From contig NZ_CP054585.1 of assembly GCF_003721435.2 (NCBI RefSeq), positions 2,976,001 through 3,040,000 on the forward strand: a stretch of 64,000 bases of DNA, given 5' to 3'. Origin of the DNA: Halorubrum sp. CBA1229 (lineage in GTDB: Archaea; Halobacteriota; Halobacteria; Halobacteriales; Haloferacaceae). Shown piece after piece: positions 28,408 through 41,501 of the stretch. The notes under the pieces are model-generated. The model was not told the origin of the DNA and searched no databases. It saw nothing but the letters and a program-made list of their open reading frames with translations. A program made the translations under genes and the position numbers. Each line of letters opens with the position of its first letter. The first letter of the stretch is position 1.

Positions 28408-28429
28408 GCGGCCGTTTATAAACGGCCGC
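28408..28429. repeat. Perfect 22-base palindrome with TTTATAAA core
   Basis: GCGGCCG on the left mirrors CGGCCGC on the right around TTTATAAA. The flanks continue as an imperfect inverted repeat (CGCTCCTC against GAGGCGCG). It could be an operator over a promoter or a hairpin in RNA. Confidence 0.7.
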
Positions 28430-28548: not shown

Positions 28549-29886
28549 TTACGGCCGCGTCGCCTTCGCGAACCACGTCTCCGGGTTCTGTCGCTTGACG
28601 CGGAAGCTCGGGAGTTCTTCGGCGTCGACCAGGTCGAGCAGGAACCCTCGGACGGGCGCCGGGTCGCGGTCGCTCACGATGAGGCACTCCTCGCCGGCGT
28701 CGAGCTCGCGGAACCGCGCCTCGACGCGCTCCTTACGCGTCTCCGGGTCGAGCCCCCGCAGATCGACGGCGTCCTCGGGCGGGTCGACCGTCCAGACCTC
28801 GTCGTACCGCTCGTCGACCGCGGCGGCGAGGTCGGTCGCGTACTCGGGGAGTGCGTCGGCGTTCGGCGCCGGCGTCGACTGCATCTCCGGATCGAAGGGG
28901 AGGTCCGCGAGCACCGGCAGATCGAGCGCCTCGATCGGGTCGTCGCCGCCGAACAGGTCGTGCGGGGTCCCGCACTCCTCGCAGACGAACTCCCCCATGT
29001 TCGAGACGACGCCGAGCACGGGCACATCGTTCTCTTCGAACAGCTCCAGCGCCCGCGCGGTGTCGGAGACGGCGGCGTGGAACGGCGTCGTGACGAGGAC
29101 GACGCCGTCGACCGGCACCTCTTGGAGGGTGGTCAACGCCACGTCGCCCGTCCCCGGCGGCATGTCGACGACGACGGTGTCCGGGTCGCTCCAGGCGGCG
29201 GTCTCGAACAGGTCCGAGAGCGCGTCGTGCGCCATCGCGCCCCGCCACGCGAGCGGGCCGTCGTCCGAGAGCAGCCCGACGCTCATCACCTCCAACCCGC
29301 CGACGTCGACCGGGACGGGATTCCCGTCGTCGTCGCTGTAGACGGGGCCGCTCGCGCCGACGACCTCCGGGACGTTGGGGCCGTAGATGTCGGCGTCGAA
29401 CAGGCCGACTGAGGGGGCGTCGCCGTCCTCGCCGTCGGTCTCCTCGCCGCCACTCCCGGCCGCGAGCGCGCACGCCAGCGTCGTCGCGACCGTCGTCTTC
29501 CCGACGCCGCCCTTCGTGCTCGCGACCGCGATCACCCGGCCCGCGGTTCCCATCCCCGACGCGCGGCCGTCGAGGTCCGGGCTCGGATCGACCTGCTCGA
29601 TCCGCGCGTTCGACACCCCCGGCGCGTCGGAGGCGGCCCGGACCATGGCGGCCGACACTCGCTCGGCCGCGTCACGGGGGAACTCGCGCAGGTCCGCGGT
29701 GACCGTCGCGGCGCCGTCGTCGACCGCGACGTCCTCGACGACGCCCGCCTCGAACACGCTCACGCCGGCGTCCGGGTCGCGGACCTTCCGGAGCTCGGCC
29801 TCCACGGCGTCGGCTGGCGACTCGTGATCGGTCGGTTCGTCGGCGGCGTCTGCGTCGTCGGGCGTGTCAACGGTGGGATCTGTCAT
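28549..29886 (-). CDS. Mrp/NBP35-type Fe-S carrier ATPase fused to a DUF2249 domain
   Basis: 445 residues, last gene of the nar operon. Residues 22-100 form an MIP18/DUF59-like domain. Residues 115-360 are the Mrp ATPase: deviant Walker A KGGVGKTT (125-132), switch segment DADIYGPNVPEV, DMPPGTGD (241-248), and the Fe-S-carrying pair C302/C305 in VCEECGTPHDLFGG. Residues 373-445 (VDLRGLDPETRKERVEARF, SDRDPAPVRGFL, ETWFAKATRP) match DUF2249, a TusA-like fold seen beside NO and nitrate metabolism genes. The start is ATG 29886; upstream frame is shadow. It probably delivers Fe-S clusters to NarH, NarG or the Rieske protein; the fusion is unusual. Confidence 0.88.
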   Translation of the reverse strand: MTDPTVDTPDDADAADEPTDHESPADAVEAELRKVRDPDAGVSVFEAGVVEDVAVDDGAATVTADLREFPRDAAERVSAAMVRAASDAPGVSNARIEQVDPSPDLDGRASGMGTAGRVIAVASTKGGVGKTTVATTLACALAAGSGGEETDGEDGDAPSVGLFDADIYGPNVPEVVGASGPVYSDDDGNPVPVDVGGLEVMSVGLLSDDGPLAWRGAMAHDALSDLFETAAWSDPDTVVVDMPPGTGDVALTTLQEVPVDGVVLVTTPFHAAVSDTARALELFEENDVPVLGVVSNMGEFVCEECGTPHDLFGGDDPIEALDLPVLADLPFDPEMQSTPAPNADALPEYATDLAAAVDERYDEVWTVDPPEDAVDLRGLDPETRKERVEARFRELDAGEECLIVSDRDPAPVRGFLLDLVDAEELPSFRVKRQNPETWFAKATRP

Positions 29887-29921: not shown

Positions 29922-30758
29922 TCACAGGTCCGGTCTCCGGTTGAGCGTGCTCTCGCCGGGCAGGTCGGCGCTGTCGTTCTCGGTGCCGCCGCTGAACTGC
30001 CGCCGGAACTTCCCGGGGTCGGCGTCGATGGCGCGGGCGGCGGTGCTCCGCACGACCTTCGGCTCCGTCTCGTCGGCCGCGACCGCTTCGAGGCGTTCGA
30101 GCGCGCGCTCGTCGTCGACGCCGGCGAGCAGGTGGACGGCCCACTCCCGCAGCCGCTCGCTGTCCGCGTGCGACAGCTCGAGCAGGACCGGGCGCAGCGC
30201 CTCGCCGCGGCTTTTGAACAGCGAGACCATCGCGTTTCTGACGACCGCGTGGTGGTCGTCGTCCAGCGCCGCCTCGATTGTCGCCGCGTACTCGCCGCGG
30301 TCGATCCGGTCGAGCGCGACGACGGCCTCGGCGCGGACCCACGGGTCGGAGTCGTCACACGCCGCGACCGCGGCCTCGCCCGCCCGCTGGCCGCCGAGCT
30401 CGCCGAGCGCCTCGACGGCGAACTGGCGCACGTCGGCGTCGGCGTCGGCGAGGCCGTGTTCGATCAGCGCGTCGACGGCGGCCTCGCTCGGTCGCCCATC
30501 GCCCAGCGCCAGCGCCGCCCGCCGGCGCTCGACCGGGTCGCCGTCGACGAGGTCCTCGATCTTCGCGGCCGCGTCGGTCCCGCGGAGCGGGGCCGTGTCC
30601 GTCGCCTGCAGCTCTCGCGGGCTCGCGTCGCCGATCGTCACGTCGCGGCTCACCTCGATGTCCTCGAGCCCGTCCGGCTCCTCGCCGAACCCCGGGCTCT
30701 CCTCGGGGTGGACGCGGGGGTCAGTCGGCCCGTCCGTCGCCTCCTCCGGGTCCCTCAT
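29922..30758 (-). CDS. HEAT-repeat protein of the nar operon
   Basis: 278 residues. An acidic, Pro-rich N-terminus (about 75 residues) precedes five or six HEAT/PBS-lyase-type repeats of about 30 residues, recognisable by DADVRQFAVEALGELG, DPWVRAEAVVALDRID, HHAVVRNAMVSLFKSRG and SERLREWAVHLLAG. Such repeats make protein-protein scaffolds. The ATG at 30758 overlaps the upstream stop by 4 bases, so it is translated with the operon. A role as assembly or docking factor for the nitrate reductase is inferred from context; no catalytic residue is visible. Confidence 0.82.
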   Translation of the reverse strand: MRDPEEATDGPTDPRVHPEESPGFGEEPDGLEDIEVSRDVTIGDASPRELQATDTAPLRGTDAAAKIEDLVDGDPVERRRAALALGDGRPSEAAVDALIEHGLADADADVRQFAVEALGELGGQRAGEAAVAACDDSDPWVRAEAVVALDRIDRGEYAATIEAALDDDHHAVVRNAMVSLFKSRGEALRPVLLELSHADSERLREWAVHLLAGVDDERALERLEAVAADETEPKVVRSTAARAIDADPGKFRRQFSGGTENDSADLPGESTLNRRPDL

Positions 30759-31681
30759 CGGGCGCTCACCCCGTTCTCGGTCGTCGGACCAGGCGAGTCC
30801 GGCCCGCCCGGTTCGCCGAGGAGCTCCTCGGCGCCCAGGGTCGCGAACGCGGCGCCGAGACAGACGGCGGTCGCGGCTCCCGGCGTCGCGGGGACCCCCG
30901 CGAGAACCAGGAGGACCGCGCCGATCGCGAGCCACGCGTCGCCCTCGCGGAGCCCGGCGACGGCGGCGGCGACCCCGCCGAACGCCGCGGTCGCGGCGAG
31001 CAGGTGCGGGCTCCCGACGACCGCGAACCCGACGAGCAGCGCGCTCCCGGTGACGTACGGCGCGGCGGCGCTCGCGAGAACGACCCCCGCAAACGCGGTC
31101 GCGCCCGCGACGAGCGCGACGGGGTCGCCCTCGGCCCGCACGACGAGCAGCGTCACTCCCCCGAGGAAGGCGACGGACCCGGCCGATCGGACGGCGGGGC
31201 CGGCGATCCCGGCCGTCGCGGCGAGCGAGAGTCCGGCGGCGAGCGCGAACGCCAGCGCGAGGACGGCGCGCCGGAGCTCGAAGTAGGTCGACGGCGGTCC
31301 CAGCGCGCGGGCGAACGCGACCGCGGCGCCGCCCGGGATCGCGACGGCCGCGGCGACGGTCGCCGCGTCGGACGCCGTCGCGAGCACGCCGAACACCCCG
31401 GCGAACAGGAGCCCGACGCGGACCGCGGAACGGTCCGCCGAGAGCGCGACAACGGCGAGCGCGACGCCGCTCGCGAGCGCCGCGACCGTCCCGGTGACCG
31501 GTACCAACCCCGACGCGAACCCGGCCGGTTCGAACGGCGCGTTGTACAGCACGCGGACCGCGGTCGCGACGCCGACGCCGACGGCGGCGAGCAGGCCGAT
31601 CGACCCCACGCGACCGCCGAGGCGACCGATCGGTGCCGACGGCGTCGTCCGCCCGTTCGCCCATTCGGTCGGTGAGCTCAC
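30755..31681 (-). CDS. Polytopic membrane protein of the nar operon, unassigned
   Basis: 308 residues, almost entirely hydrophobic (Ala/Val/Leu/Gly), about nine or ten transmembrane helices, with short loops and few charged residues. There is no His pair pattern clear enough for heme and no transporter motif. Overlaps of 4 bases on both sides tie it to the chaperone and HEAT-repeat genes. Candidates are a nitrate/nitrite carrier, a membrane anchor for the reductase or a quinol-interacting subunit; none can be supported by motif. Confidence 0.75.
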   Translation of the reverse strand: MSSPTEWANGRTTPSAPIGRLGGRVGSIGLLAAVGVGVATAVRVLYNAPFEPAGFASGLVPVTGTVAALASGVALAVVALSADRSAVRVGLLFAGVFGVLATASDAATVAAAVAIPGGAAVAFARALGPPSTYFELRRAVLALAFALAAGLSLAATAGIAGPAVRSAGSVAFLGGVTLLVVRAEGDPVALVAGATAFAGVVLASAAAPYVTGSALLVGFAVVGSPHLLAATAAFGGVAAAVAGLREGDAWLAIGAVLLVLAGVPATPGAATAVCLGAAFATLGAEELLGEPGGPDSPGPTTENGVSAR

Positions 31682-32472
31682 GACCGCTCACCCCCGTCCG
31701 AACCGTCGGTGACCGCGTGTTCGCGGTCGCCCCCCGCACCGGCGTCGAGACGCTCCGCGAGGTCGTCGACGTCGGCGGCGACGAAGGCGTCGAGGAAGCG
31801 CGCGAGGCGACCGTAGACGCTCGTGCCGGGCTCCTCGTCCAGGGCCGTCCGAAGCCCCGACGCGAGGACGGAGAGGTGGCGGTCGTGGAAGTCCAGTCGG
31901 GCGCGGTCGAGGTTCGCGGGCTCCGCGTCTCCCGACGCGTCGTCGCCCGCGGCGGCCAGGCGACAGAGATACCCCGCGAACTCGAGCTCCAGGCGGACGT
32001 GGTCGTGGTGGCGGCGCTCGTCGCCGCCGACCTCGCAGCCGAAGTGCTCGTACGCCCGAGCGAGGTCGAGGTTCACGTCGTTCCACGACACGTCGGAGCG
32101 GTACGTCGACTCGTACAGGGAGGCCGGCGGTCCCTGGTTCTCGACCGTTCCGTCCGTCCCGTCGATCACCTCGGAGTAGCCGATGACGAACAGGTCGTTG
32201 TACCGGGCCGCGAGCGTCTCGCGGTCGTCCGCCACGGTCAGGTCGGGCGGGTCAACGTCGAGGCCGGTCCGGTCGACGAGCGTCGCCATCGACTCGTCGA
32301 GCGAGCCGTCCGCGAACCGCTCGTGGATGCCGCCGCTCGGCTCGGCGAAGGCCGCCGCCGCCAGCGCGTAGACGCTTCCGCGCGCCGCGGCCTCCTCGTC
32401 GATCGCGTCGCGCCGAAGCCCCTCGTCGAACCCGGGACCGTCACGTTCGGCGATCGGTTCCGACACGGTCAC
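31678..32472 (-). CDS. narJ: TorD/DmsD/NarJ-type redox enzyme maturation chaperone
   Basis: 264-residue, all-helical acidic protein of the TorD family, which binds the Tat signal or apo form of a molybdoenzyme until cofactor is inserted. Seen are the helical opening RGSVYALAAAAFAEPSGG, the conserved ESTYRSDVSWNDVNLDLARAYEHFG in two pieces, and ERRHHDHVRLELEFAGYL, close to the E-P-x-D-H family motif region. It sits right after the gamma-like subunit with a 4-base overlap. Assignment to NarJ is by operon position; the sequence class is TorD-like. Confidence 0.82.
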   Translation of the reverse strand: MTVSEPIAERDGPGFDEGLRRDAIDEEAAARGSVYALAAAAFAEPSGGIHERFADGSLDESMATLVDRTGLDVDPPDLTVADDRETLAARYNDLFVIGYSEVIDGTDGTVENQGPPASLYESTYRSDVSWNDVNLDLARAYEHFGCEVGGDERRHHDHVRLELEFAGYLCRLAAAGDDASGDAEPANLDRARLDFHDRHLSVLASGLRTALDEEPGTSVYGRLARFLDAFVAADVDDLAERLDAGAGGDREHAVTDGSDGGERS

Positions 32473-33338
32473 TCACCCCTCGTCCGGCGGATCCCCTCGA
32501 CGGTCACGAGCGTGGTGAACACGACGGCGACCCCGGCGAGCGCCCACAGCACCGTCTCGTAGGGGGCCCCGCCTTCGGCCGGCCCGAGCGAGAGGTAGTA
32601 CCACTCGCTCGCGGCCTTCTGCCCGGAGCGCTCGTCGTTACCCCCCTCCCAGACCGCGAACGCGGCGTTCACGTCTTGGTCCGGGTCGACGTCGGTCACG
32701 TTCGCGCGGTCGGACGAGAGCGGCCGGGTGAACACGACGGCCCACCGGTCGCCGGTGTGCGTCGCGGTCGTCTCCACCGCCGACTCCGAAATCTGCGTCG
32801 TGCTCCCGGCGCCGCCGGCGAGCAGTGACTCCGTCCCGTCGGCGGCGTTCCAGTACCAGACGTTCACCCGGTTGTCGGTCGATCCCATCGCGATCGGCGG
32901 CCGCGACTCCGAGGCGACGGGGAGCTGGACCGCGGCGGCGTCGGCGAACGCGCGGAGCGAGTCCGTCGACTCGTTCGCCGTGGGGTCGCTCCACGACAGC
33001 CGGAGGTAGAGCCGCTCGTCGGTCCGCGCGGCCTCGACGCGGACAGACTCGACGGTGGTGTCGGCGCCGCCCGGCACCGCCGCGCCGGTGCTGCTCATCG
33101 GGACGGTCACCGTCTCGACGGACTCCCACGCGTCCCCGGTCGGCTCCGCGAGGTCGCCGGCGCTCGACTGTCCCTCGACCGGGATCTCGTAGGCCGCGCG
33201 CGCGTCGACGGCCGCGGGGAAGGCGGCGGTCGCGGCCACGACGGCGAGCGCGAGCGCGGCCGCGACGACGAGCTCCCGCGAGCCGATTCCGCGGTCGTCG
33301 ACCTCGTCGTCGCCGGGCCGATCGGCGTCACGCTCCAT
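32469..33338 (-). CDS. Ethylbenzene-dehydrogenase-like heme b subunit (NarGH gamma)
   Basis: 289 residues. An N-terminal signal/anchor helix (LVVAAALALAVVAATAAF), an extracellular domain of the ethylbenzene dehydrogenase gamma / DMSO-reductase heme b family (YLRLSWSDPTANESTDSL, MGSTDNRVNVWYWNA, WAVVFTRPL) and a C-terminal membrane helix (VLWALAGVAVVFTTLV). In EbdC, DdhC and SerC this domain binds one heme b and links the molybdoenzyme to external electron carriers; here it replaces NarI. A Met ligand would be expected near MGSTDN. The start overlaps the NarH end by 11 bases, confirming cotranslation. Confidence 0.83.
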   Translation of the reverse strand: MERDADRPGDDEVDDRGIGSRELVVAAALALAVVAATAAFPAAVDARAAYEIPVEGQSSAGDLAEPTGDAWESVETVTVPMSSTGAAVPGGADTTVESVRVEAARTDERLYLRLSWSDPTANESTDSLRAFADAAAVQLPVASESRPPIAMGSTDNRVNVWYWNAADGTESLLAGGAGSTTQISESAVETTATHTGDRWAVVFTRPLSSDRANVTDVDPDQDVNAAFAVWEGGNDERSGQKAASEWYYLSLGPAEGGAPYETVLWALAGVAVVFTTLVTVEGIRRTRGE

Positions 33339-34428
33339 CGTCGAACACCTCCAGCCGGTACTGGTCGTCGTTGTTCACGGTCGAGAGGATCTCCATGAGC
33401 TCGCTCTCCTCGCCCTGTCTGACCCGGTCGCGCTCGCGGTTGATCGTGTTGAGCGCCTCGTTCACCTGCGGGCCGAACAGCTCCTCCAGGTAGTTGCGCG
33501 GGATGCGCTCCGCGTCCACCGTCTCGCCGCTCTCCGACGTCTGCGGCGGCGCGAACGGCGGGATGTAGTAGACGTTCGGCTCCGTGCGGTACTCGGGGTG
33601 GAGCCGCAGGGCGACCTCGTACTCGTTCACGAGCTTGTAGATCGGCCCATCCTCGTCGTCGAGGAAGCCGACGTGCCGGAGCTGCGGCGGGCAGTCCTCG
33701 GCACAGGATGGGGGCCGCACCTCGCCCTCCGGTCCCTCCCCCTCGATCCGGGGGTAACAGAAGATGCACTTCTCGCTGGTCTTCGTCTGCGCGTTGTAGA
33801 ACACCTTCTTGTACGGACACCCCTCGACGCAGTACCGGTAGCCGCGGCAGCGGTCCTGGTCGACGAGGACGATCCCGTCCTCCTCGCGCTTGTAGATCGC
33901 GGAGCGCGGGCACGCCTCCACGCAGGAGGGGTGGGTGCAGTGGTTGCAGATCCGGGGGAGATAAAAGTAGTAGGAGTTGGGGTACTCGCCGGCGCCCTCG
34001 TCCTCGTCCCAGTTCGGCCCCCAGTCCGCGTTCTCCATGGGACGGAGCGGCTCGTCGCTCCCCTCGTACATGATCGCCTCGTGGTTGAACTCCCACGCGC
34101 GGCCGTAGTCCTCCTGCTCCGGGAGCTGGCCGGGCGTCCGGGACTGTCCGTCCTCGTCCCAGCCGCCGCCCATCTCTTCCCAGTCGCGGGGGTAGCCGGC
34201 GCCGGGCTTCGTCTCGACGTTGTTCCAGTACATGTACTCGCGTCCCCCGGACTCGGTCCAGTTGGTCTTACACGCGATCGTACACGTCTGGCAGCCGATG
34301 CACTTGTTCAGGTCCATCACCATCGCGACCTGATGGTCCACGCCCTCCGCGAGGGGAACGTCGCCGTCGTCGGTCTGCCGGGCGGCGTCGTCGGCCTGAC
34401 GGACCGTGTCGTCGGTGGTTTTGCTCAT
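33328..34428 (-). CDS. narH: Nitrate reductase beta subunit, four Fe-S clusters
   Basis: 366-residue ferredoxin-like electron-transfer subunit. CIGCQTCTIACKTNW begins the first cluster (C43, C46, C49, C53). CNHCTHPSCVEACP, CRGYRYCVEGCPYKK, CIFCYPR and CAEDCP supply the others; the aromatic residue in CRGYRYC marks the [3Fe-4S] site. NKCIGCQTC, PRDWEEMGGGW and the C-terminal PRNYLEELFGPQV resemble NarH, DdhB and SerB of the exported molybdoenzyme group. It has no own signal peptide and is expected to ride with NarG through the Tat pathway. The 4-base overlap with narG supports a stable complex. Confidence 0.93.
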   Translation of the reverse strand: MSKTTDDTVRQADDAARQTDDGDVPLAEGVDHQVAMVMDLNKCIGCQTCTIACKTNWTESGGREYMYWNNVETKPGAGYPRDWEEMGGGWDEDGQSRTPGQLPEQEDYGRAWEFNHEAIMYEGSDEPLRPMENADWGPNWDEDEGAGEYPNSYYFYLPRICNHCTHPSCVEACPRSAIYKREEDGIVLVDQDRCRGYRYCVEGCPYKKVFYNAQTKTSEKCIFCYPRIEGEGPEGEVRPPSCAEDCPPQLRHVGFLDDEDGPIYKLVNEYEVALRLHPEYRTEPNVYYIPPFAPPQTSESGETVDAERIPRNYLEELFGPQVNEALNTINRERDRVRQGEESELMEILSTVNNDDQYRLEVFDDGA

Positions 34429-37400
34429 GGGCCGTCACCTCCGAGCAGGTCCGAGACGCGACCCAACGCGCCGCGCGACGTCGACCCCGAATCGGTCGAC
34501 TCCGACCCCGAACCGGACGACTCAGACCCCGTCGCCGACGCCCCGAGCGGGCCGGCGTCGAGCGACGCCGGCTCCTCCCCGACCGGCTCGACCTCGATCC
34601 GGACGTCGCTGTTCACCCCGGTCGGGCCCCAGTAGTTCGGGAAAAAGTGGAGGTGCTCGCCCGTGTCCTCGGGATACTGGACGAGCTGGGTCGGCTTCAT
34701 GTACATCGGCACGAGCGAGTTGAAGTTGTTGCGGTCGGGGTACTGGAACCGCTCCCAGCTGAAGAAGTGCCGGACGGTGCCGGGCTCCCCGCTCGGGTAG
34801 ATCTTCGCCTGCACCTCGACCGAGTCGAGGTCGTTGTACACCCGCACGGTGTCGCCGTCCTCGATCCCGCGTTCCTCGGCGTCCTCGGGGTTGAGGTAGA
34901 CGGTCGGCTCGCCGCGCTGCAGCCGGAGCATCTTGCTGTCGTCGCGCCACGTCGAGTGGATCGACCAGCGGCTGTGCGGCGTGTTGTAGCTCAGCGGGTA
35001 CTCCGACTTCTCCTGGAGCACCGGCCCGTCTTTGTGCGTGGGGAGCTGCTCGTCGAGCTCTAAGAACCAGTCGTGGTCGATGTAATACTGCTGGCGTCCG
35101 GTGAACGTCGGCCACGGGTTCTTGTCCTGCACGTAGTCTTTCCACGGCGAGTACGCCTGGCCCTCCTCGATGTCCGACGACCAGTGGTCGCCCGTCTCGA
35201 GGAGGCGACGCGGCTGCGCTTCGATGTCGTCGAACGTGAGCTGCTCGTCGGCGCCCTCCGGGTTCGACTCCTCGGAGTTCTCGAGAATGAACTCCGCGGC
35301 CGCCTTGTCCTCGGCCAGCGCGCCGGGCTCGTTGTCGATCCAATCGCGCGTGTAGTCGTCGTGAACGGACTGGAGGTCGATCTCGCGGTCGAACTTCCGG
35401 TCCGACACCGGCTCCGTGCCGCGCTGCTCGGCGAGCTCCTGGATCTTCGCGGCGAGCTCGCGGAAGATCTGCCAGTCCGTCTTCGACTCGCCCAGCGGCT
35501 CGACCGCCGGCGTGAACGGGTGGACGTACGTGTGCATGTCCGTCACCGACAGGTCGTGCTTCTCGTAGTGGCTCGCCGTCGGAAGGACGATATCGCTGTT
35601 GAGCGCCGTCGAGTCCATCCGGAAGTTGATGTCGACGACCAGGTCGAGCTTCGGCCACAGCTCCTCCTCGACGGCGATGTTCCCCTTGGCCTGGTTGAAG
35701 TAGTTCCCGCGCCAGACGAACATGAGTCTGGGGTCCGGACGGCTGCCGTCGTCGCGCTCGCTCGGGTACAGCGGCATCCACCCCTTATCGATCGACTCCC
35801 GGATTTTCGCGGCCGTCTCCGGGTCCGTGTTCTCCATGATCCCGGCGTGGTAGTACGTCCACAGCGTCGTCGGGACGCCGCGAACGCTTCCGGTCGGGAA
35901 GGAGAGCTGCTTCCAGCCGTTGAACGTCCATATCTTCTCCTGACCCACGTAGTGGTCGAGGCCGGTCCCCTGTCGGCCGAGGTTCCCGGTGAGCGTGACG
36001 AGCAGCTGGATCGCGCGGTTCCCGAGGTCGTTGTGGTACCAGTCGTTGACCCCCTTCCCGTGGATGATCTTCGCGCGGTCGACCTCGGCGAACTCGCGGG
36101 CGATCTTCTGGTGTGTCTGCCTCCCGACGCCGGTGATCTCGTTGACCACCTCGGGAGTGTACTCCGACAGCTCGTCGCGGAGGTTCAGCCAGACGGTGCG
36201 GGTCTCGACCGCGCCGTCGGTCGTCTGAACCGTGCGCTCGGCGTCGAGGTCGGGGTCGAAGTCGAGCTCGATGCTCAGTGAGTGGTCGTGCTGTCCGTCC
36301 CGCTCGCCGAGCGAGCCCGGCGCCGTCCGGAGGGTGCCGTCGGCGTCCTGCATGACGAACACCTTCTCCGGGCGGTCGGCGTCGACGCTCAGCCCGGACA
36401 CCTCGCTCGCGCGGAGGAACTTCCCGGTGTCCTCGCGGACGAGCAGCGGCATGTCCGTCTGCTCTTTTAAATGCGCCTCGTCGTACAGCCCCTCGTCGAC
36501 GATGGTGCGGGCCATCCCGAGCGCGAGCGCGGTGTCGCTGCCGGGCTCCGGGCCGATCCACTCGTCGCAGTGGATCGCCGTCTGGCTGTAGTCGGTGAAG
36601 ATCCCGACGCGCTTGGCGCCGTCGTACCCCGCCTCGAGGAAGTACTTCGCGTCCGGGATCCGGGTGACGTTGATGTTCGAGCCCCACGCGATGATGTAGT
36701 CGGCGTTGTACCAGTCCGCGCTCTCGGCGTTCTCGGTCTGGGTCCCCCACGTGATCGGCTGGCCCGGCGGGAGGTCGGAGTACCAGTCGTAGAAGGAGTG
36801 GCTGACGCCGCCGAGCAGGTTGACGAGGCGGCTCCCCGAGGCGAACGAGACGGGGCTCATCGCCGGGATCGGCGTGAAGCCGCTGATCGCGTCGTACTCC
36901 CCGTCCTCGACGGCGTCGATGACCTCCTCGGCGATCTCGGTGAGCGCCTCGTCCCAGGAGATCCGCTCCCACTTACCCTCTCCCCGCTCGCCGGTCCGGC
37001 GGAGCGGGTGCGTGACGCGCTGGTCGGCGTTCACGTAGTCGGTGAAGCACGCCCCCTTCTGACAGCCGCGCGGGTTCGGGTCGGGAAGCGACTCGTCGAA
37101 GCGGGGGTAGTCGCCGGCCTGCTCCTCGCGCCACACCTGCCCGTTCCGCGTGTACACCTGCCACGAGCAGCTGCCCGTGCAGTTGACGCTGTGCGTCGAA
37201 CGGGCCTTGCCGTCCCAGTCCCACTCCTCGCGGTAGAGGTCCTCCCAGTCGCGGTACGGGTAGTTACCGATCGGGTCGTCGACCACATCCAGTGTGTTCA
37301 TCTCGGTGAGATCCTGCGCGGATCCCAGCCCGGTGGCGCCGACGGCGGCCGCCGCTCCGACTCCCTTCAGGAAGTCGCGGCGCGCGGTGCCGGCCTCGTC

Positions 37401-37439
37401 GCGTGTCGATTCGCCCGTCGTGTCTGTCGTGTCAGTCAT
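34425..37439 (-). CDS. narG: Nitrate reductase alpha subunit (Mo-bisMGD), Tat-exported
   Basis: 1004-residue catalytic subunit reducing nitrate to nitrite. The Tat signal is at residues 18-42 (TARRDFLKGVGAAAAVGATG), so the enzyme faces outside, unlike bacterial NarG. The N-terminal [4Fe-4S] motif with a His ligand is H83-C87-C91...C126. The Mo ligand is most likely D222 in YDWYSDLPPGQP, the Asp position of the NarG/DdhA/SerA group. The MGD-binding C-terminal domain starts near 800 (VYLNPEDAEERGIEDGDTV). Disordered Ser/Glu-rich tail. Perchlorate or chlorate reductase relatives are close, so nitrate is inferred from the Rieske/cytochrome b context and the NarO-like gene. Confidence 0.92.
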   Translation of the reverse strand: MTDTTDTTGESTRDEAGTARRDFLKGVGAAAAVGATGLGSAQDLTEMNTLDVVDDPIGNYPYRDWEDLYREEWDWDGKARSTHSVNCTGSCSWQVYTRNGQVWREEQAGDYPRFDESLPDPNPRGCQKGACFTDYVNADQRVTHPLRRTGERGEGKWERISWDEALTEIAEEVIDAVEDGEYDAISGFTPIPAMSPVSFASGSRLVNLLGGVSHSFYDWYSDLPPGQPITWGTQTENAESADWYNADYIIAWGSNINVTRIPDAKYFLEAGYDGAKRVGIFTDYSQTAIHCDEWIGPEPGSDTALALGMARTIVDEGLYDEAHLKEQTDMPLLVREDTGKFLRASEVSGLSVDADRPEKVFVMQDADGTLRTAPGSLGERDGQHDHSLSIELDFDPDLDAERTVQTTDGAVETRTVWLNLRDELSEYTPEVVNEITGVGRQTHQKIAREFAEVDRAKIIHGKGVNDWYHNDLGNRAIQLLVTLTGNLGRQGTGLDHYVGQEKIWTFNGWKQLSFPTGSVRGVPTTLWTYYHAGIMENTDPETAAKIRESIDKGWMPLYPSERDDGSRPDPRLMFVWRGNYFNQAKGNIAVEEELWPKLDLVVDINFRMDSTALNSDIVLPTASHYEKHDLSVTDMHTYVHPFTPAVEPLGESKTDWQIFRELAAKIQELAEQRGTEPVSDRKFDREIDLQSVHDDYTRDWIDNEPGALAEDKAAAEFILENSEESNPEGADEQLTFDDIEAQPRRLLETGDHWSSDIEEGQAYSPWKDYVQDKNPWPTFTGRQQYYIDHDWFLELDEQLPTHKDGPVLQEKSEYPLSYNTPHSRWSIHSTWRDDSKMLRLQRGEPTVYLNPEDAEERGIEDGDTVRVYNDLDSVEVQAKIYPSGEPGTVRHFFSWERFQYPDRNNFNSLVPMYMKPTQLVQYPEDTGEHLHFFPNYWGPTGVNSDVRIEVEPVGEEPASLDAGPLGASATGSESSGSGSESTDSGSTSRGALGRVSDLLGGDGP

Positions 37440-37633
37440 TGTTTGTCGATGAGAACGGTCGCGAGGCCGAGCGCGACGCCGAGCGCCGCGAACGCGACGC
37501 CCGCGAGCGTGCCGCCGCCCGCGTCGAGTCCGGCGGCGATCAGCCCCACGCCGGCCAGTTTCGTCGCTCGATCCGCCCAGCGGTACCGACGCGGCGACAG
37601 CTCCGCCAGCCGAGTTCCGCTCGACTCAGTCAT
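37436..37633 (-). CDS. Small nar-operon membrane protein
   Basis: 65 residues with a polar N-terminus ([13 protein letters not shown]) followed by two Ala/Gly-rich membrane helices, ending LIDKQ. It overlaps cytochrome b by 8 bases and narG by 4 bases, so it is translationally linked to both. Haloferax nar operons have a small open frame at the same place between narC and narG, as I recall. A role in holding NarG near the cytochrome is plausible but unproven. Confidence 0.75.
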
Positions 37634-39134
37634 CGTCCGACCCCCCCGTTCGCGTCGGCGAGTCGTCGCGGCTCGGTTCCGGCGGTCCCTCGTCGTCCCC
37701 CGAGGGCGGGCCCCCCTCCGAGTCGTCCCCGAAGCCGCCGAGGACGGCGTAGGTGAGGGTGCCGGCCGCGGCGGGAACGAGCACGATCGCGGCGATCAGG
37801 TAGGGACGGAGCGCGGCCGTCGACGTGCCGAGGATCTCGGCGAGGATCACGTCCATGCCGGCGATAGACGCGATCATGACGAGCGTGACGCCGACGATGC
37901 CGACCGCGGTCGGGAACGGTCGGTCGAGGTAGTTCCGCGTGAAGTGCTCCGGCTCCTCCGCGCGGTCGATGAACGGCCAGACCGCCACGGCGACGAACAC
38001 CAGACTCGGGAGGAGCAGCCCGCCCACGAACTCCGAACTGACGTGGATCCCGAGCACGTCGAAGCTCATCCACGAGGGGGTGAGCTTCAGGAACCCGTAC
38101 CCCCACATCAGGAACCAGTCCGGCATGACGAGCGACGGCGTCGACGCCGGGTCGTTCGGTCCGTATTGAGCGATGTTGTGAACGGGGAGCAGCCCGGCGA
38201 GCAGCGAGAGCACGGCCATCGTGAGGAAGAACACGACCGCGCTCACCGCGGCCTGATTCGGGAACGCCGGCAGCCCGATCACGACGCTGTCGTCGTCGCG
38301 GTCGATGAGACGGGCGCCCCCGTCGGTCGTTTCGGGCCCTCCGCTCCCGCTCGGCGCTTCCCCGGTCGCGTGCGGGGTGCCGTCCCCCGCTCCCGGGGCG
38401 GCCACGTCCCCGTCGCGCTGCGCCTCGGTGTGCTTCTGTCGGACGAGGATCGCCATGTGGACGGCGATGAGCCCTCCGATCGCGGCCGGGATGAGGAAGA
38501 CGTGCAGGAAGAACAGCCGCGGGATCGTCGCGCTCGTCGGGAACTGACCGCCGAAGACGATGCTCGCGAGCGGGTCGCCGACGATCGGGATCGAGGCGGC
38601 GACGTTGTAGCCGATGCCGACCGCCGTGCTCGCGAACTCGTCGTACGGGAGCGAGTAGCCGGTGTAGGCCGCGAACATCGCCAGCCCGGCGAGGCCGGTC
38701 CCGACGAGCCAGTTCGGCTCGCGCGGGTTCCGGTACGCGCCGGTGAAGAAGACGCGGAGCATGTGCAAGGCGATCGAAGCGACGAACAGATGTGCCGCCC
38801 AGTGATGCATGCGCCGCAGGAACATCCCGAACGGCACGTCGTAGGTGATGTAGAGGACGCTCGTGAACGCCGCCGGCAGCTCCTGCCCCTGGTACTGCAC
38901 GACGCTCCCGCTGTACTCGACGGCGGTCGTGCTCGGTTCGTAGAAGAACGCGAGGAACGTTCCAGTCGCGACGAGGATCCCGAAACAGAACAGCGCGACC
39001 TCGCCGAGGAGGAAGGAGTCCTCCGCGGGGAACGCCTTCCCGAGGAAGTCGCTCCCCTCCCCCAGACCCAGGCGCGAGTCGGCCCAGTCGTACGCGGACT
39101 CGGCCCGATCGACCGCCGCGTCGATCCGGGACAT
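37626..39134 (-). CDS. narC: Cytochrome b of the nitrate reductase quinol-oxidising module
   Basis: 502 residues, about nine membrane helices, joining the cytochrome b6-like half and the subunit-IV-like half of bc complexes. Heme b histidines lie in [20 protein letters not shown] and in [20 protein letters not shown] quinol-site PxxW-like motif is in [17 protein letters not shown] long acidic loop separates the halves and the tail is disordered. It works with the adjacent Rieske protein to oxidise menaquinol. ATG 39134 shares a base with the Rieske stop (TGATG), which fixes the start against the longer frame. Confidence 0.9.
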
Positions 39135-39919
39135 CACTCCCCCCCGGGGCCGACCGGCCCCTGGAAGTCCCCGGTCGCGACGAGGTAGCCGTCGCCCGAG
39201 AGCGTGATCGGGAGCTGCGGCAGCGCTCGCGGCGGCGGCCCCCCGACGACCTGCGCGCCCGTCACCGGGTCGAACCGCCCGGAGTGGCACGGACAGACGA
39301 GCACGTCGCCGTCGCGGTCGGCGACCATGCAGCCGGCGTGGGTGCACACTTTCGAGAACGCGGCGTACCCGCCGACGGTGTACTCGTCGCGCACCTGGTC
39401 GCCATACGCCGACTCCTCGAAGCGCACGAGCAGCGTCGGGGCGTCCTCTACCCCCGGGCGCGGCTCCGGGAATACCGTGAGCTGTTCGCCGGGGGCGATG
39501 CGGTCCTCCGCGATCCGCTCGCCCGCCTCGTCGACGAGGGGGATCCCCGCCTCGTACACCGGGCCCTGATACTTGCGCTCGAACACCCGCGTGAGCCCCG
39601 CGACGGGCGCGGCGAGGCTTCCGACCGCCGTGATCCCGCCGACCGTCGCGAGGACCTTCGCGTAGTCGCGGCGCTTGAGTTCGGCGCGCGCGTCCTTCCA
39701 GAACGGCCGGAAGATACTCGGGTCGACGGCGGGCCCGCCGTCGTTCTCCGGGCAGGCGTCGCACAGTTCTCCCTCGGCGTCGGACGCGTCGGAAGCGTCG
39801 GCGTCGGACGCGTCGACATCGGTACGCCCGCCGGGCGCCTCGCGCTCGCGAGGGCCGGCGCTCGGCGGGGCGTCGATTCCGTCTCCCGTCGGTCGTGTGT
39901 CGGGTGCGTCGTCTCCCAT
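39134..39919 (-). CDS. narB: Rieske [2Fe-2S] protein of the nar operon
   Basis: 261 residues. The cluster ligands are C192 and H194 in CTHAGC and C209 and H212 in CPCHSG, with C197 and C211 forming the stabilising disulfide. A twin-arginine anchor ([20 protein letters not shown], residues 81-100) should insert it by Tat with the Rieske head outside. The first 70 residues are acidic and disordered apart from a CDACPEN pair of cysteines (C53, C56) that typical Rieske proteins lack. The start is ATG 39919, one base overlapping the previous stop. It passes electrons from cytochrome b to NarGH, probably via a copper protein or the heme subunit. Confidence 0.91.
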
Positions 39920-40554
39920 CAGTGGTCCCTCCGTTCGGCGACTTCGACGTGGGGCATGAACCAGGCGTAGTACGACACCGTCGAGCCCAGCAGCGACATG
40001 AACAGCCCGAAGGCGTACACGCCGAAGTACTGGGTGCGCGCCAGGGTGAGGTACTCGGCCGTCAGCAGCGCCGAGAAGACGATAGCGAGGACGGTGAGCC
40101 CCCCCATCGCGACGAGCCCCTCGATGGCGTCGCTCGCGTCGTGGTACTGGACGACCCACCGGTCCTCCGTCTCGAACCAGGGGAACGTCGCCCGGTTCGT
40201 CCCGTCCGGCGGCGGTCCGTCGAGCCCGCCGTCGGCCGCGGCCGGGTCGTCCGCGCCGCCGGTATCGCTCGGACCCCCGCCGCTCGCGTCGGGGCGGGCG
40301 GCTCGGTTCATGAAGCGGTGGAAAAAGGCCATGGCCCCCAACAGCCCCAGCAGGGCGACCCAGACGATCACCCCGACCTGACTCGGTGAGAGCTTGTTCG
40401 GCGCGTCGACGAACCCCTCCAGCGGCTGCATCTCGCTCACGCTCTGGTCGATCCTGACCTCCTCCGAGGGCGGCTCGCCGTGGAGGCCGACGTACCACGT
40501 CGGCAGCAGCACGGCGAGCACGATGAGGAGGATCGCGATCGTTCGTCTGTCCAT
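39919..40554 (-). CDS. narA: Membrane protein, first gene of the nar operon
   Basis: 211 residues. The N-terminal helix ([19 protein letters not shown]) is followed by an external segment rich in Glu/Ser, a second helix ([19 protein letters not shown]), an acidic Gly/Asp loop, then two further helices near 140-160 and 172-192. No cofactor motif is evident. The symbol follows the name of the first gene of the Haloferax nar operon and rests on position only. ATG 40554 is preferred over the frame start at 40602 because it begins at the signal-like helix. It may be a membrane partner of cytochrome b. Confidence 0.72.
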
Positions 40555-40766: not shown

Positions 40767-41501
40767 TTAAATACCCTCGCCGAACAGCTGGGACAGCACG
40801 GTGGCCGTCACGAGCCGGAGGTGTTCCGAGACGGTCGATTTGGCTACCCCGAGCTCGGCGGCGATCTCGTCGGCCGTGGCGCCGTCCGGACCGAAGTACC
40901 CCTCCTCGACCGCGACGGCGGCGACGGTCGCCTGTCGCTCCGTCACGTCGGAGAGGTCGACCGGGACCACGTCCGGCCGACCGTCGTTCGTGTCCCGATC
41001 CACGAGGATCCGGCGGACCTCCGCGCCGCCGAACGCGTCGACGATCGCCTGCAGCTCCCCGTACCCGGTCAACACGAAGGTGGCGAGCAGCTCCCCCTCG
41101 TCGATCAGCGTCTCGCGCGGCGACACCGGGAAGCCGGAGAACGCCGACGGGAGCCCGGCACAGGCGCAGGCGGTGCAGCCGCCGTCCGAGGGTGTCGACG
41201 TCGCGTCGGGGTCGGAGGGGTCGTGGTCCCCGCGCTCGCCGTCACCCTCGTCGCCGCCGTCGCGGGGTTCGCGATCGGCGCCCCCGCGCCCGAGTTCGTA
41301 CCGGCCGTGAGCCCGCCCGGCGAACTCCAGCAGGTCCAGCTCACTCGGCGCGTCGGCGGGGCTGTCGTCCGCGACGAAGTCGACGCGCGCGTCGTCTGGG
41401 TCGACCCGGACCGCCCGCAGGGTCGTCCGCTCGGACAGCGCCGTTACGGGACAGCGATCGCAGGTTGCGGCCGCCACTTGGACCTGGATCGTGTCGGTCA
41501 C
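40767..41501 (-). CDS. narO: NarO-like bat-type HTH regulator with cysteine cluster
   Basis: 244-residue transcription activator of the bacterio-opsin-activator (HTH_10) class. The N-terminal sensor part has five cysteines: C14 and C17 in ATCDRCPV, and C109, C112, C114 in GGCTACACAG, fitting an oxygen-sensitive Fe-S cluster as proposed for NarO. An Asp/Gly-rich disordered insert (about 70-108) separates them. The HTH is at the end: ATADEIAAELGVAKSTVSEHL. GTG 41501 is chosen because upstream frame overlaps repeats and lacks family similarity. Codirectional with and 212 bases before the nar operon, it is its presumed anaerobic activator. Confidence 0.87.
   Translation of the reverse strand: MTDTIQVQVAAATCDRCPVTALSERTTLRAVRVDPDDARVDFVADDSPADAPSELDLLEFAGRAHGRYELGRGGADREPRDGGDEGDGERGDHDPSDPDATSTPSDGGCTACACAGLPSAFSGFPVSPRETLIDEGELLATFVLTGYGELQAIVDAFGGAEVRRILVDRDTNDGRPDVVPVDLSDVTERQATVAAVAVEEGYFGPDGATADEIAAELGVAKSTVSEHLRLVTATVLSQLFGEGI

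Follow-up and report, generated by a model that had tools for sequence, protein, structure and literature searches.

The closest described relative of the gene considered here lies in the nar operon of Haloferax mediterranei, where E6P09_17415 was reported in 2024 as a P-loop NTPase iron-sulfur carrier with a DUF2249 domain; the authors suggest a gene fusion, and the gene is induced in denitrification with a log2 fold change of 3.6 (PMC11218638). MrpORP is able to pass clusters to proteins of its own operon in vitro (PMC6345978). In nitrate reductase itself, the insertion of FS0 into NarG needs NarJ (PMC10609526), and Thermus without both of its DUF2249 proteins, DrpAB, has 90 rather than 900 U of nitrate reductase, with NarG still made (PMC6282519).

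Here we describe a gene of this kind from Halorubrum sp. CBA1229, found within a window that comprises the whole stretch of 64,000 nucleotides that was analyzed. We consider it somewhat probable that the encoded protein is a Mrp/ApbC-type [4Fe-4S] carrier dedicated to the alpha/beta modules of type II DMSO reductases (NarG/Ddh-like). Its partner is the class of type II molybdoenzymes rather than nitrate itself, and its defining client is not the Rieske protein. A first-pass annotation of the sequence had read the protein as a dedicated Fe-S loader in a nar operon, and that reading is supported in part.

The fusion gene, its operon, and its domains

The gene stands last in a translationally coupled run in which most junctions overlap by 1-11 nt, in the order narA-like, Rieske, cytochrome b, narG, narH, EB_dh-type gamma, narJ/TorD, polytopic, HEAT, and fusion (Table 1). 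This coupled order agrees with the terminal place, after the HEAT and polytopic genes, that the first-pass annotation had given it. An alternative in-frame GTG at 29925, which would yield a protein of 458 aa and overlap the stop of the HEAT gene by 4 nt, is plausibly the true start. Just past the end of the gene, at window positions 28408-28429, there is a perfect 22-bp palindrome, GCGGCCGTTTATAAACGGCCGC, with a TATA-like core inside; it is unique in the window at up to 3 mismatches, and occurred 0 times in 100 shuffles.

Table 1. Features of the fusion gene and the nar operon, in window coordinates.
Feature	Position	Strand	Basis or remark
Mrp-DUF2249 fusion gene	28549..29886	-	445 aa from ATG
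DUF2249 domain, residues 374-441, TusA-like fold, no conserved Cys	28564..28767	-	PF10006
Mrp/NUBPL P-loop ATPase domain (ParA/NUBPL), residues 117-338	28873..29538	-	PF10609 E 1.4e-62
CxxC C302-C305, presumed cluster-bridging motif	28972..28983	-	invariant in 98/98 fusions
Deviant Walker A KGGVGKTT, residues 125-132	29491..29514	-	K125 and K130 invariant, 98 fusions
FeS_assembly_P/DUF59 (MIP18-like) domain, residues 26-94	29605..29811	-	PF01883 E 1.6e-7
HEAT-repeat protein	29922..30758	-	PF13646 E 4e-23
Polytopic membrane protein, no Pfam family	30755..31681	-	position conserved in relatives
NarJ/TorD-type chaperone	31678..32472	-	TIGR03482 165 bits, above cut-off
EB_dh-type heme b gamma subunit	32469..33338	-	TIGR03477 218 bits, above cut-off
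NarH-type beta subunit, 15 Cys	33328..34428	-	TIGR03478 566 bits, above cut-off
NarG-type alpha subunit, twin-arginine motif, H-C-C-C FS0 motif	34425..37439	-	TIGR03479 1301 bits, above cut-off
Cytochrome b subunit	37626..39134	-	PF13631 E 6e-45
Rieske protein	39134..39919	-	PF00355 E 4e-9
Small membrane protein, narA-like first operon gene, no Pfam family	39919..40554	-	position and conservation
HTH_10 regulator adjoining operon, NarO/DmsR-like	40767..41501	-	PF04967 E 1e-11; DmsR_N at its cut-off

The earlier description of a single chain that joins Mrp to DUF2249 is borne out, with PF01883, PF10609, and PF10006 all falling on the 445-aa reading frame, and the placing of DUF2249 at residues 373-445 was right to within a few residues. 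PF10006 scores 37.7 bits on the full chain and 42.1 bits (E 7.8e-11) on the C-terminal tail alone, in both cases above the Pfam cut-off of 29.5. The MIP18-like N-terminus is likewise present as described but is ordinary, since alignments with the tail-less Mrp paralogues of this genome begin in that same N-terminal region. Invariant signature residues are found in both the Mrp and the DUF2249 parts across 98 fusions, and the fusion is therefore real and not a product of chance. The CxxC, which aligns to that of ApbC and Cfd1, together with the deviant Walker A makes a capacity for Fe-S carriage plausible. The MrpORP profile NF041136 scores 182 bits where its cut-off is 450, and matches only the ParA part.

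The AlphaFold model has a pLDDT of 88 over the whole chain and 93 over the tail. Structure matches to the Mrp part include ApbC (8zkc, the best PDB match), Cfd1, and proteins of the HypB type, and the modeled tail matches TsuB, SirA-like, and TusA chains with VIA-align Z scores of 9.6-8.5. In Foldseek the best match to the tail is TusA in its IscS complex, with an E no better than 0.006, and a sequence search of the tail against solved structures gave nothing significant; as modeled, the likeness to TusA is a resemblance of fold and not proof of kinship. The PA1006 protein of Pseudomonas is also TusA-like. As a persulfide-modified protein, PA1006 is needed for nitrate reductase activity (PMC3568144); given this, the fold, and the Foldseek match, the tail could be thought of as a sulfur relay, a TusA-type persulfide carrier that supplies either the sulfuration of Moco or the assembly of clusters on the Mrp domain. 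However, no persulfide cysteine is conserved in the tail, where at most 9 of the 98 fusions have a Cys at any column, and a role as persulfide carrier is disfavored and very improbable. The description of the tail as TusA-like thus holds for its fold but not for sulfur chemistry.

The same genome encodes three further Mrps without a tail, as well as separate DUF2249 genes. One tail-less Mrp (L154, 7798-8883, C1) closes a tetrathionate-reductase-like operon in the order DsrO-like, NrfD-like, TtrA-like, TorD, and Mrp, a layout similar to that at L149 in another genus, and a second (L155, 7009-8067, C2) has a DMSO-reductase-like operon on one side and a WtpA-like tungstate transporter gene on the other. 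When the nar fusion is included, three of the four Mrps of this genome therefore neighbor genes for Mo/W enzymes. Two small DUF2249 genes are found at L158 (7474-7707 and 11767-12000), the latter with a multicopper-oxidase gene immediately downstream.

Distribution across the Halobacteria and a second operon type

The survey covered 391 Halobacteria genomes, the same set being used in the searches for NarG, the fusion, and the second-type and third-type alpha subunits described below; genes in relatives were called with a composition-based caller and labeled from BLAST comparisons with a small number of references. Of these genomes, 86 have NarG, 94 have the fusion, and 76 have both. The fusion hence occurs in 76 of 86 genomes with NarG as against 18 of 305 without it, a co-occurrence with a Fisher p of about 8e-52 when the genomes are treated without kinship correction. 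Seventy-two copies share the strand of narG and follow it at a distance of 4.2-6.4 kb downstream, and, with circular contigs counted, a fusion stands within 12 kb at 74 of 88 NarG loci; a few of the other 14 are contig breaks. In ten of the genomes with NarG the fusion is missing altogether, which indicates that it is not strictly required and that other carriers suffice there.

At five loci of one genus (L061-L065), the place of the fusion after HEAT in the nar operon is occupied by a conserved protein of 80-83 aa that belongs to no known family. Separate DUF2249 genes are found close by, and at L061, L063, and L064 the gene after this reading frame is radical-SAM-like. The small protein was considered as a split-off piece of DUF2249 or DUF59, and this found no support, with no Pfam match and an hhalign probability of 5.6.

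Nearly all fusion copies away from narG lie at the end of a second type of operon, the context of ten of them (L110-L119) being judged from coordinates, and those at L040 and L052 lie just upstream of it. This operon encodes alpha, beta, TorD, an EB_dh gamma, and in most cases also HEAT and a protein that has about 216 aa and belongs to no known family; Rieske and cytochrome b are absent from it in the loci read. Its alpha subunit is 25-34% identical to NarG by segment and its beta subunit mostly 35-41% identical to NarH, and TIGR03479, TIGR03478, TIGR03477, and TIGR03482 are the best matches for its alpha, beta, gamma, and chaperone, respectively, all below cut-off. The second-type alpha is found in 35 genomes, and 30 of the 35 loci have a fusion within 12 kb. 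Diverged fusions are in place at the loci of G146 and G297, and in G088 the contig ends before the expected position. Only G368 and G369 (loci L142 and L143) were seen with a second-type operon without its own fusion; both carry a nar-linked fusion elsewhere, which is possibly shared between the two operons.

Overall, 104 of the 110 fusion matches are within 12 kb of a gene for NarG or the second-type alpha. The other six are those of G165, G244, G281, G187, and G376, and one copy in G168. G165, G244, and G281 have neither NarG nor the second-type alpha; a Rieske-like gene lies beside a shortened fusion in G165 and a HEAT fragment is found in G244, and these two loci look like remnants of nar operons, while the neighbors of the fusion in G281 are unrelated. 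In G187 and G376 the fusion is at a contig end with NarG on another contig of the same genome, which fits broken assemblies. The G168 copy (L115, contig 11) is a second fusion in a NarG genome for which no second-type alpha is listed; it was counted without a partner in this tally but grouped with the second-operon copies in the alignment, tree, and overlaps. The tie to nar proposed in the first-pass annotation is thus seen in 76 of 86 NarG genomes, but the partner it implied has to be widened from nitrate to type II DMSO-reductase operons. The fusion does occur in 18 genomes without nar, and an equal presence in such genomes was what the first-pass annotation had named against its own reading; 15 of these 18 have the second type II operon, and three have neither.

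No fusion outside the Halobacteria was found among the matches listed for 295 genomes of the phylum, about 240 of them outside the class, nor among the 80 loci kept from the matches listed in a genome-contig scan; among the 50 best plasmid records there was none outside the haloarchaea. The plasmid record of Halobaculum sp. CBA1158 has a partial fusion match near its start.

In a rapid phylogeny of the Mrp part, which has SH-aLRT support only and several long branches, the fusions lie on one side, apart from the housekeeping Mrps, with the nar copies nested among the second-operon copies and most tail-less Mrps outside. Four sequences that fall beside the fusions (L128, L129, L130, and L135) were first labeled tail-less and are third-type copies with diverged tails. 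The fusions are of common descent. At least one Mrp match is present in every genome searched and some nar operons manage without the fusion, as would be expected if it were a generic extra Mrp copy, held in the operon by linkage and with no dedicated client; the near-exclusive linkage to distinct type II operons, the separate branch, and the conserved tail argue against such a copy, which we regard as quite improbable.

It has also been suggested that DUF2249 proteins act as sensors, both in H. mediterranei (PMC11218638) and in Thermus, where deletion of DrpA/B makes nar expression independent of nitrate (PMC6282519). The DUF2249 part of the fusion would then sense nitrate or reactive nitrogen species, and either gate the carrier or report to a regulator. 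However, the fusion is also tied to the second operon with its non-NarG alpha, and a diverged form to the third operon; the tail motif reads SDRDP in the nar type where second-type tails read NDHDP; and the H. mediterranei fusion is reported to be without the histidines of DrpA (PMC11218638). A sensory role is accordingly rated as improbable, if less so than a generic copy.

A third operon type and the FS0 motif

A third operon, whose alpha is found in 33 of the 391 genomes, has alpha, beta, and TorD beside a related Mrp with a DLRG...W tail; gamma, HEAT, and Rieske were not detected in operons of this type. The Mrp is present at 17 of 20 newly fetched third-type loci and not at L240 or L241, and L258 ends at a contig end. 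PF10006 has no match on the relatives at L239 and L137. Most third-type Mrps have lost the CxxC and kept Walker A and the tail; the CxxC is kept in some copies of the branch (L128, L130, L135, and L145). The first-pass annotation had included the Rieske protein among the clients of the loader, and this is not favored, since the second and third operon types are without a Rieske gene. The partners common to all operon types are only alpha, beta, and TorD, which leaves the alpha and beta subunits as the shared candidate clients.

The FS0 motif differs between the types. At the loci that fit the search pattern, as a few did not, it is H-C-C-C for NarG and C-C-C-C for the second type, and in the third-type alpha an Asp replaces one Cys, with the beta subunit keeping 15 Cys. 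The altered FS0 and the loss of the CxxC together hint at FS0 as the recipient cluster, and may represent one or two evolutionary events. A tentative and rather doubtful extension is that the family is specific to FS0, with Mrp-DUF2249 and TorD/NarJ loading this cluster by way of a Cys-free docking domain, and with the branch that has an Asp in FS0, where the CxxC is mostly lost, acting as an ATPase assembly factor only.

As most third-type copies have no CxxC, the wider family must do more than carry a cluster bound at this motif. The retention of Walker A and the tail in these relatives, the close structural match to 3vx3, an ATPase-type HypB without a CxxC, and the MobA or MobB genes near several of the operons would all suit an ATP-driven assembly or cofactor-insertion factor, HypB-like, which would act with TorD at the molybdenum-cofactor step and for which Fe-S carriage would be secondary. 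Such a factor does not need a CxxC, yet the motif is found in every one of the nar-type and second-type fusions, and we judge this role to be unlikely, though a more serious contender than a sensor.

A proposed role in cluster loading and its relation to known systems

In the carrier role that we prefer, the Mrp domain would take up a [4Fe-4S] cluster at the CxxC, with ATP bound at the deviant Walker A. The C-terminal DUF2249, TusA-like but without the sulfur-carrying Cys, would dock the carrier on an assembly of apo-alpha/beta with TorD (NarJ), and the cluster would be passed to alpha/beta before export, with FS0 of alpha as a possible, and the likeliest single, recipient. Three published findings, all on other proteins, speak for this role: the need for NarJ in FS0 insertion (PMC10609526), cluster transfer by MrpORP (PMC6345978), and the low activity of Thermus drpAB mutants in which NarG is made (PMC6282519). 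The twin-arginine signal on the alpha subunits examined places cluster loading in the cytoplasm, prior to export. We infer each element of this function, namely cluster binding, transfer, the docking partner, and the recipient cluster.

Outside E. coli, to our knowledge, little is understood about the route by which FS0 and the other clusters enter NarG-type enzymes. With a carrier that follows a single class of enzyme across operons of several types, in genetically tractable organisms such as Haloferax, the question becomes directly testable, both as to the cluster that is loaded and as to DUF2249 as the docking part. The fusion also points to a possible non-sensory function of DUF2249, and cluster loading might account for the low nitrate reductase activity reported for the Thermus drp mutants.

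The housekeeping carriers ApbC, Cfd1, and Mrp share the P-loop ATPase, the deviant Walker A, and the CxxC with the fusion, but have no DUF2249 tail and belong to a separate branch. MrpORP is, like the fusion, a dedicated Mrp/NBP35 protein with an extra C-terminal domain, and delivers clusters to its physiological partners of the ORP complex in vitro (PMC6345978); its extra domain, however, is of the dinitrogenase-cofactor type and binds a cluster of its own, where the fusion has DUF2249. The ATPase-type HypB of Thermococcus (3vx3 and 5aun) is similarly a Mrp-type ATPase dedicated to the maturation of one metalloenzyme, but it helps to insert Ni into hydrogenase and has neither CxxC nor tail. 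The TusA family has its fold in common with the tail, in which the catalytic Cys is absent. DrpA and DrpB of Thermus resemble the fusion as DUF2249 proteins encoded downstream of nar and needed for full nitrate reductase activity, and differ from it in having no Mrp domain, in the periplasmic location of DrpA, and in being proposed as nitrate sensors (PMC6282519). E6P09_17415 of H. mediterranei, like the fusion in the window, combines a P-loop NTPase iron-sulfur carrier with DUF2249 and belongs to a nar operon; the part of that study drawn on here treats DUF2249 proteins as possible sensors, and holds no Fe-S loader model or survey of operon types (PMC11218638). The Mrp-DUF2249 fusion is therefore already known from Haloferax mediterranei and the gene in the window is a further member, and what is new is its distribution.
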